From NCBI GenBank assembly GCA_023252155.1, contig JAHEXJ010000009.1, positions 1-51,129 on the forward strand: DNA of 51,129 nt, in the 5' to 3' direction. This stretch comes from Actinomycetes bacterium. Its GTDB lineage: Bacteria; Actinomycetota; Actinomycetes; Nanopelagicales; Nanopelagicaceae. Numbering within the stretch: position 1 is the first letter of the stretch; each line of letters starts with the position of its first letter. The notes under the pieces are model-generated. The model did no database searches. It saw only the letters and a program-made list of their open reading frames with translations, and was not told where the DNA came from. Below are positions 21,615 through 23,492 of this stretch, piece after piece. A program made the translations under genes and the position numbers.

Positions 21615-21863
21615 TTAAGCGGTTGGTTCGAGATTCTCGATCGTCAAAAGACCCTCGTTGATTTCGCGCAGGGCAATCGACAATGGCTTCTCGTGAACAT
21701 GTGTCTCGACGAGTGGTCCTACGTATTCCAGGAGACCTTCGCCCAATTGAGAGTAATACGCATTGATCTGGCGGGCACGCTTGGCCGCATAAAGGACGAG
21801 GCTGTACTTGGAGCCGCTCTTGTCCAAAAGTTCGTCAATCGGTGGATTTGTAATGCCGTCCAT
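21615..21863 (-). CDS. rpoZ: RNA polymerase omega subunit
   Basis: Small (82-residue) subunit that helps assemble the beta' subunit. It shows [27 protein letters not shown] and the actinobacterial C-terminal part with [10 protein letters not shown]. An AAGGGG ribosome site lies 7 bases upstream. It is located between the mihF-gmk fusion and coaBC, the conserved gmk-rpoZ-coaBC-metK order. Confidence 0.96.
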
Positions 21864-21896: not shown

Positions 21897-22763
21897 TCAG
21901 GTGGCTAAGGATACCAGTGCCTTGACTACCTTCTCGACGCGGTCATTTACAAGGATTACGTCGAATTCCTTGGCCGCGGCTAGTTCATCGGCAGCCAATT
22001 CGAGCCTGTGGGCTCGACGTTCGGGAGTATCAGAGCCTCGTCCTTCCAATCTGGAAACCAGATCTTCCCAACTGGGGGGTTCGAGGAAGACAAGGATTGC
22101 TTCTTTACTGTGAGTGCGCACCTGACGCGCACCCTCTATGTCAATTTCTAGCAGAACATTCTTGCCTTCAGAGAGCGCTTTCTCCACACCTTCTCGAGGC
22201 GTTCCGTAACGAGCGCCGGCAAATTGAGCCCATTCCAGGAAATCATCTTTCGAAATTCTGTTTTCGAATTCTTCTTCGGTGAGAAAAAAGTAATCTTCGC
22301 CGTCTTTTTCATTGTTGCGCGGACGGCGGGTTGTCGCTGAAACACTCACCCAGAAATTATCACTTGCTGCACGCAATCTTGATGCAACTGTGCTTTTGCC
22401 AACTCCCCCAGGGCCCGAAAGGACCAATAATCTGCCGCGATGATTGATGGGCTTGAACTCGGAAATCAACTCGGCACGTTGATGAATTCCAAGTCCTTGG
22501 ATTCTTCGTGGGGAAGATATGGCAAGCCGTTCCATAATTGCCGCGGCACGAATCTTGCCGACACCAGGAAGGGATTCCAGGAGCTCGCTTACACGCATTT
22601 TTGCGATCGGGTCATCAGTCTTCGCGAGTATCAAAACATCGGAAATGCCCATCTGTCCGGTCTTCACCTTGGCCTTTATCTCTGCCCGAGCCCTACGAGA
22701 ATTCGCCGCCTTAATCAAAGCCTGCGCGCGTTGTTCGGGCGTCAAAGAGGGGGGAACGGGCAT
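21897..22763 (-). CDS. gmk: Fusion protein: mycobacterial-type integration host factor (mIHF) plus guanylate kinase
   Basis: One uninterrupted 288-residue frame joins two proteins usually encoded by adjacent genes. Residues 1-103 are an mIHF/sIHF DNA-binding protein, with L-T-P-E-Q-R-A-Q-A-L, the P-G-V-G-K-I-R-A DNA-contact motif at 66-73 and R-R-I-Q-G-L-G. Residues about 108-288 are guanylate kinase: P-loop G-P-G-G-V-G-K-S-T at 117-125, then S-A-T-T-R-R-P-R, D-Y-F-F-L, and L-L-E-I-D-I-E-G-A. The junction (22431-22457) has only a few linker residues and no ATG. mIHF compacts DNA; Gmk converts GMP to GDP. It lies between pyrF and rpoZ. Both halves look intact. Confidence 0.95.
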   Translation of the reverse strand: MPVPPSLTPEQRAQALIKAANSRRARAEIKAKVKTGQMGISDVLILAKTDDPIAKMRVSELLESLPGVGKIRAAAIMERLAISSPRRIQGLGIHQRAELISEFKPINHRGRLLVLSGPGGVGKSTVASRLRAASDNFWVSVSATTRRPRNNEKDGEDYFFLTEEEFENRISKDDFLEWAQFAGARYGTPREGVEKALSEGKNVLLEIDIEGARQVRTHSKEAILVFLEPPSWEDLVSRLEGRGSDTPERRAHRLELAADELAAAKEFDVILVNDRVEKVVKALVSLAT

Positions 22764-22790: not shown

Positions 22791-23492
22791 TTAGATAAGT
22801 TCGGCCGCAATAGTGGCTGCGCGGGCTCGCAGTGCATCGAAACCGTCGGTCCATGCGCTCGTGATCGGTCGTCCTATCACTAGGTAATCCGCTCCTGCAG
22901 ATATTGCGCTTTTGGGGTCCATCGTTCGTTGCTGATCATCACTGCCCGAAGATGTGGGTCTCACACCGGGGGTAATGATTGAAATATCTGCCCCAACGGC
23001 GGTTCTAATGGAAGCTATCTCCAGCGGTGAGCAGACAATCGCCCTTGCTCCTGCCGATACTGCTAATTGAGCCAGCCGGACGGCTGAATCAAGCGGGCTG
23101 GATTCGAAGCCAATATCACTCAAATCCTTTGAGGTCAGTGAAGTAAGAATGGTCACGGCTGCAATGTTGATATCGGGTCCGGCGATAGCGGCGGCGGCGA
23201 CCATTGCCGAACCACCAGACGAATGGACCGTTAGAAAACGAGGCTTCAGAACAGCAACAGCGCGAGTCGCGCCAGCTACAGTGTTTGGAATATCGTGAAG
23301 TTTCAAATCCAGAAATAATTCGGCGTCAGTGAGATCGGCTATCTGTCGGACGCCTTCGCCGCCAAAGGCAGCGAAGAACTCAAGCCCCAATTTGAAACCA
23401 CAGACAGATTCTTGGGTGGCCTTAACCCACGACTTTGCTATGTCAAGGTCATCACAATCAATGGCAAGAAAAATTGGCGCTCTCCTGGTCAT
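22791..23492 (-). CDS. pyrF: Orotidine 5'-phosphate decarboxylase
   Basis: Converts OMP to UMP, the last step of the pathway encoded here. The 233-residue TIM barrel carries F-L-A-I-D-C-D near its start and the active-site motif D-L-K-L-H-D-I-P-N-T (Asp-Lys-Asp triad), which places it in the type 1 group. Many actinobacteria have a different, longer type 2 PyrF. C-terminal phosphate-binding V-I-G-R-P-I is present. It follows pyrD after 39 bases. Confidence 0.96.
   Translation of the reverse strand: MTRRAPIFLAIDCDDLDIAKSWVKATQESVCGFKLGLEFFAAFGGEGVRQIADLTDAELFLDLKLHDIPNTVAGATRAVAVLKPRFLTVHSSGGSAMVAAAAIAGPDINIAAVTILTSLTSKDLSDIGFESSPLDSAVRLAQLAVSAGARAIVCSPLEIASIRTAVGADISIITPGVRPTSSGSDDQQRTMDPKSAISAGADYLVIGRPITSAWTDGFDALRARAATIAAELI

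Follow-up and report, generated by a model that had tools for sequence, protein, structure and literature searches.

A fusion of the genes for the nucleoid protein mIHF and guanylate kinase recurs among actinobacteria

The closest described systems include two known protein families, actinobacterial IHF (mIHF or sIHF) and bacterial guanylate kinase (Gmk). In Mycobacterium tuberculosis, an operon link among mihF, gmk, and rpoZ has been documented, and gmk and rpoZ had to be supplied when mihF was deleted because of polar effects (PMC6155035). The Streptomyces homolog, SCO1480, has been placed among the actinobacteria-specific proteins in an article that does not contain the word guanylate (PMC4255298). 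For Mycobacterium smegmatis, one account describes strains in which the essential native protein was replaced by msIHF-EGFP, msIHF-PAmCherry, or msIHF-HaloTag with growth equal to that of the wild type, or by msIHF-Dendra2 with slightly slower growth, and regards msIHF as presumably a monomer when binding DNA (PMC10028186). We read the construct names as denoting C-terminal tags. Since tagged strains in that account grew like the wild type, an attached domain on mIHF is tolerated.

Our analysis concerns a gene in which the two families are joined. It lies in the window, the whole 51,129-nucleotide stretch of actinobacterial DNA that was analyzed, at positions 21897..22763 on the minus strand. 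The ATG is at 22763 and the stop codon is at 21897-21899, so that a single open frame of 288 codons (288 amino acids) runs through both domains with no stop between them. We found no published account of such a fusion in the open-licence full-text literature, judged mostly by titles and the beginnings of abstracts, and the pairing of these two known families has apparently gone unremarked in print.

Both family models score above their cut-offs on this frame. The actinobacterial IHF domain (residues 1-104; 22452..22763, minus strand) is recognized by PF22525 and by NF041260, which aligns over residues 5-104 and profile positions 3-102 of 102 with 128.5 bits against a cut-off of 60. It contains the RRxxGLGxxQ motif at residues 86-95, here RRIQGLGIHQ, with glutamine at the third basic position. 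The guanylate kinase domain (residues 110-288; 21900..22436, minus strand), with the P-loop GPGGVGKS, is recognized by PF00625 and by TIGR03263, which covers residues 110-286 and profile positions 1-177 of 180 with 223.4 bits against an equivalog cut-off of 160.45. Searched against the whole protein, Pfam places H2TH_5 at 33-103 and Guanylate_kin at 110-284. Between the domains is a linker of about five residues (105-109; 22437..22451, minus strand), delimited by the gap between the family matches and by a structure model. Actinobacterial IHF is normally a free-standing protein of about 105 residues, which the fused gene does not encode, Gmk being joined in one frame. This does not bar membership at the level of the domain, because the NCBIfam kind of NF041260 is 'equivalog_domain'.

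The structure model of the fused protein, built from 36 fused proteins, had a mean pLDDT of 89.4 and was confident in both domains. The lowest-confidence block was residues 101-110 (mean pLDDT 70), and with a pTM of 0.59 the model leaves the mutual orientation of the two confident domains unfixed. The top Foldseek match was M. tuberculosis Gmk (1z8f; 47% identity, TM-score 0.88 by target length). The best 50 Foldseek matches listed were all kinases and none was to the mIHF half, so support for that half comes from sequence. By that measure, the mIHF half is nearest to the solved structures of SCO1480 (4itq) and M. tuberculosis mIHF (6tob), and the other half to guanylate kinases. Among the 36 aligned fused proteins, the P-loop and R86, G90, L91, G92, and Q95 were invariant and R87 was nearly so. 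Both predicted domains are complete and keep the signatures of their families, in agreement with the earlier note, which had described a real mIHF-gmk fusion whose two halves retain their motifs.

A fusion seen in one draft genome could reflect a frameshift or an assembly error at the junction, and the window's genome is a draft (1.81 Mb in 114 contigs, 83.8% complete) in which the whole protein has a single match. Yet in all 21 sampled genomes of the genus, the match was full length and the frame was unbroken, which excludes such an error as a general cause. Together with other independent assemblies, including complete genomes, in which the junction is likewise intact, this makes an artefact exceedingly improbable. 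Furthermore, each of the 21 genomes had exactly one NF041260 match and one TIGR03263 match, each in an open frame of at least 290 residues, and a search with the family models found no second stand-alone mihF or gmk in any of them. Of the refuting outcomes named in the earlier note, neither a frameshift at the junction nor a second stand-alone copy was encountered in this genus. The note had also held that mihF and gmk are usually separate neighbors, and this was borne out: none of 23 genomes from other families contained an unbroken full-length match. Eighteen had two or more matches, one had a stop inside the match, one had the kinase only, and three had no match.

Within the window's family of small-genome freshwater actinobacteria, 271 of 296 genomes gave a match. 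Among the matches listed, 16 of the 17 single-contig genomes had one full-length match without a stop, while the remaining one (G028) had two separate matches. On named contigs, irrespective of family, 88 loci were found and 80 kept, comprising 57 fused loci, 22 separate loci, and one without an mIHF part in the stretch examined. Fused genes occur in the complete genomes of Candidatus Planktophila lacus, Candidatus Planktophila versatilis, and strain IMCC19121. By genus, 11 of the 17 sampled are represented by fused genes and six by separate ones. As far as these genomes reveal, the fusion is a kept and recurrent architecture in the family, and it is dispensable for life there, because six genera keep the genes apart. 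One such genus (24 genomes, 19 with a match) contained no unbroken fusion among the matches listed, and its junctions range from ATGA-type overlaps to a stop with the in-frame kinase ATG immediately after it. At four loci (L133, L134, L136, and L137), the mIHF stop TAG is followed directly by the gmk ATG in frame, an arrangement that is either close to a fusion or a recent split. Some apparent fusions did not hold up. Actinomycetospora, Nocardioides, and others, counted as fused when a single match spanned both genes, proved to have a stop between them and are separate (22 of 112 loci), and G054, taken as fused from equal frame lengths, also has separate genes (L130).

The architecture is not confined to this family. 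In a second family (f36), fused genes were found in at least 127 of 150 genomes, a count made by hand from the 148 with a match by removing 11 in which a stop was flagged within the match and 10 whose matches were partial. It is a lower bound, since one of the stop-flagged genomes (G690, locus L270) has both domains in one frame. A Microbacterium protein of 298 amino acids annotated only as 'guanylate kinase' (WP_223172673.1) has the same architecture. Because its identity is 74 to 78% with nine f36 fusions and does not exceed 47% with those of the window's family, f36 is most probably Microbacteriaceae. In another family (f34; 85 genomes, 83 with a match), one genus was fused in four of four genomes and another in five of 11; the remaining genomes had two matches, kinase-only matches, or matches with a stop. 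Apart from one genome of another class (G1102, described below), searches of the class (394 genomes) and the phylum (296 genomes) revealed no further unbroken full-length match outside these groups among the matches listed. The idea of the fusion as a one-off thus has to be abandoned: most sampled members of two families, the window's own and a second one, carry it, and it seemingly arose repeatedly.

Several individual genomes deserve mention. A draft genome from another class of the phylum (G1102, 82% complete) carries mIHF and Gmk in one 287-codon frame (L259). Other sampled members of its family mostly had two matches, and this is possibly a further independent fusion. Two single-contig f36 genomes of approximately 1.4 to 1.5 Mb (G658 and G661; L264 and L265) have gmk alone, with no mIHF detectable within approximately 2 kb on either side; mIHF may have been lost there or may lie elsewhere. 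The collection, across groups, amounts to 148 distinct fused ORFs, of which a few are truncated by a contig end. Identical sequences were collapsed before we counted junctions, linkers, internal starts in the family fusions, motif residues, and charge.

The gene neighborhood corresponds to the operon setting of the separate genes. On the same strand in the window, the order is carB, a pyrK-like gene (whose model scores fall short of the cut-offs), pyrD, pyrF, the fused gene, rpoZ, coaBC, and metK. The next gene upstream, pyrF (22791..23492, minus strand; NF001273), ends 27 bases before the fused start, and the next downstream is rpoZ (21615..21863, minus strand; TIGR00690). In Microbacterium, pyrF lies upstream of the fused gmk, annotated in two pieces, and rpoZ lies downstream with two Fic-family genes between. 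In Microbacterium sp. NIBRBAC000506063 (NZ_CP072877.1; L253), pyrF in two pieces, the fused gmk, rpoZ, and metK are on a 465-kb record termed a plasmid. An 11.85-Mb Nonomuraea record (NZ_LT559118.1; L254) is labelled 'plasmid I' and is chromosome-like.

How many times the genes were joined was addressed with a quick tree of four neighboring proteins (coaBC, rpoZ, pyrF, and pyrD; 62 rows and 938 columns), in which four f36 rows were left out by the fill rule and the chosen outgroup did not correspond to one side of any branch. The tree required five switches between the fused and the separate state, at least four of them forced by starred branches. The fusions of f36, f34, and the window's family did not group together in this tree, in which the position of f36 was weakly supported. 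Linkers, which span 5 to 24 residues over all fused groups, also vary among them: the mode is nine in the window's family (82 of 131), 26 of 27 f36 linkers have 12 to 17 residues and one has 24, and the four f34 linkers have 9 to 24. Read parsimoniously rather than as a formal result, this suggests at least three separate fusions of neighboring mihF and gmk, with those outside the window's family apparently arising independently. Inside the family, the earliest-branching genera (g5, g14, g9, and g12) have separate genes, and the rest requires three changes, two of them forced by starred branches. These would fit one gain with two splits, or as many as three gains. The hypothesis that the family fusions form a single clade was not rejected (AU p 0.078), and the common nine-residue linker leans towards one gain. 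The ancestor would have had mihF and gmk side by side in an operon of the form pyrF-mihF-gmk-rpoZ, often abutting or overlapping, and an in-frame loss of the mihF stop would have produced the joined gene. The simplest route would be loss of one stop codon between abutting in-frame genes, in an arrangement such as that at L133.

Patterns of substitution revealed purifying selection on both halves. In the close pair L001/L002, dN/dS was 0.060 (mIHF half) and 0.070 (kinase half), and in L012/L015 it was 0.060 and 0.054, respectively. Among the 11 of 19 pairs in which both halves were computable, dN/dS ranged from 0.033 to 0.177 for mIHF and from 0.027 to 0.316 for the kinase, the value of 0.316 belonging to a pair with very few changes; in the other eight, synonymous sites were saturated in at least one half. 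In several pairs, L018/L020 and L029/L030 among them, dN of the mIHF half was more than twice that of the kinase half, and the mIHF half is held less tightly in some clades. Taken together, the single frame, the complete domains, the single copy, the purifying selection, and the recurrence in several lineages establish, at the level of sequence, a selected fusion.

DNA binding calls for more caution. The loose RR-GLG-Q pattern was present in every family fusion (129 of 129), in every separate mIHF (62 of 62), and in 26 of 27 f36 fusions. The third basic residue of RRxR-GLG is arginine or lysine in 38 of 39 separate mIHFs outside the window's family. That position is non-basic in 121 of 129 family fusions, in all pattern-matching f36 fusions (24 of 27 matched), and in two of four f34 fusions. 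The corresponding arginines of M. tuberculosis mIHF have reportedly been implicated in DNA binding by mutation. With this residue mostly non-basic in the large fused groups, DNA binding by the fusion could be weaker or changed. The residue names that we searched for did not occur in PMC3724605. The mean net charge of the mIHF domain was +8.2 in family fusions, +9.1 in f36 fusions, and +6.0 in the four f34 fusions, compared with +9.1 in separate members of the window's family and +6.9 in other separate mIHFs.

An argument can be made from these data that mIHF now serves the kinase as a structural or regulatory element and has given up the organization of DNA. Both large fused groups have lost the third basic residue, the mIHF half changes faster in several pairs, and the window's genome encodes a separate HU-family protein. 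Nevertheless, in the closest pairs, L001/L002 and L012/L015, constraint on the mIHF half resembles that on the kinase half, the RR and GLG-Q residues are kept, and the positive charge is kept in the two large groups. Moreover, 16 of the 22 separate mIHFs in the window's family already have a non-basic residue at the third basic position, so that in this family the change is not tied to fusion alone. We consider it unlikely that DNA organization has been abandoned.

The reading that we favor, and regard as probable, is that the locus is a true and selected mihF-gmk fusion encoding one protein of approximately 31 kDa with a DNA-binding H2TH domain and a kinase that converts GMP to GDP. In this single polypeptide, the N-terminal H2TH domain would bind DNA and the C-terminal domain would phosphorylate GMP, and the fused protein would be the only detected source of either function. 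We infer that both activities are retained and that most molecules are full length. The kinase would then be held in part on the nucleoid, and the ratio of the two activities would be fixed at 1:1.

The fixed ratio would not hold if the frame had two starts, with an internal one supplying free kinase in addition to the fusion. Candidate starts are common: an in-frame ATG lies 5 to 26 codons before the P-loop in 64 of the 148 fused ORFs, and an ATG, GTG, or TTG does so in 120. An ATG at position -15 occurs in 35 ORFs; apart from L008, from the window's genus, they belong to a clade that includes strain IMCC19121, and several of these ORFs have fair anti-SD pairing of -7 to -7.5 kcal/mol. Even so, the stretch 5 to 26 codons before the P-loop contains no ATG, GTG, or TTG in 14 of 130 family fusions and neither ATG nor GTG in 60 of 130, while Ca. 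Planktophila lacus and versatilis (L035 and L073) have no ATG at -15. In the examples examined, the family's separate kinases start nearer to the P-loop, approximately 6 to 11 codons before it, and the window itself has only a TTG at -17 with weak pairing (-1.7 kcal/mol). Among the 21 ORFs of the genus, seven have an ATG or GTG in the stretch and two have no start codon at all. Mean anti-SD pairing was -2.0 kcal/mol at mIHF starts, -2.6 at the junction, and -2.7 in controls, the mIHF starts being no better than the controls. Re-initiation cannot be a shared requirement, because internal start codons are not conserved, and as a general account a second start seems improbable; it may take place in the clade that includes IMCC19121, where the ATG at -15 recurs.

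Free mIHF and free Gmk could also be released by post-translational cutting at the linker. The linker falls within the least confident block of the model and, as noted, its length is variable, both of which speak for cleavage. The junctions examined by eye showed no conserved cleavage motif, however, and we judge processing of this kind very unlikely. A further proposal is that Gmk has been repeatedly recruited to the nucleoid through fusion, physically linking the supply of GDP and GTP with chromosome packing, possibly with mutual modulation. We regard this as rather doubtful. If true, occupancy of DNA by mIHF may alter kinase activity, or the guanine nucleotide state may alter nucleoid compaction.

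The anatomy of the gene is ordinary for gene fusions. What makes it noteworthy is that an architectural DNA protein is paired with a nucleotide kinase and that large groups retain the pair, such that in most sampled members of two families a metabolic enzyme would be carried by an architectural chromosome protein. Because related genera differ in whether the genes are joined, they provide a natural experiment on whether a nucleotide-making enzyme benefits from being located on DNA. In addition, with mIHF hidden under a kinase name, surveys of nucleoid proteins that are based on stand-alone proteins would miss fused mIHF.

The fusion was compared with known systems. With actinobacterial IHF (Rv1388 of M. 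tuberculosis and sIHF of Streptomyces), it shares the whole domain, the RR-GLG-Q residues, and the operon place beside gmk and rpoZ. It differs in that those proteins normally stand alone and end at their own stop, whereas the fusion continues into a C-terminal kinase and in most cases has a non-basic residue at the third basic position of the motif. With bacterial Gmk (Rv1389 of M. tuberculosis; PDB 1z8f and 1s4q), it shares the complete fold and the P-loop; the fused kinase has no start of its own and bears a predicted N-terminal DNA-binding domain in place of a short leader. A further known system is WP_223172673.1 of Microbacterium with its f36 relatives, which have the same two domains in the same order between pyrF and rpoZ. 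Compared with the window's family, the f36 group has longer linkers, a more divergent mIHF half, and names that refer to the kinase only, and its fusion probably arose independently.
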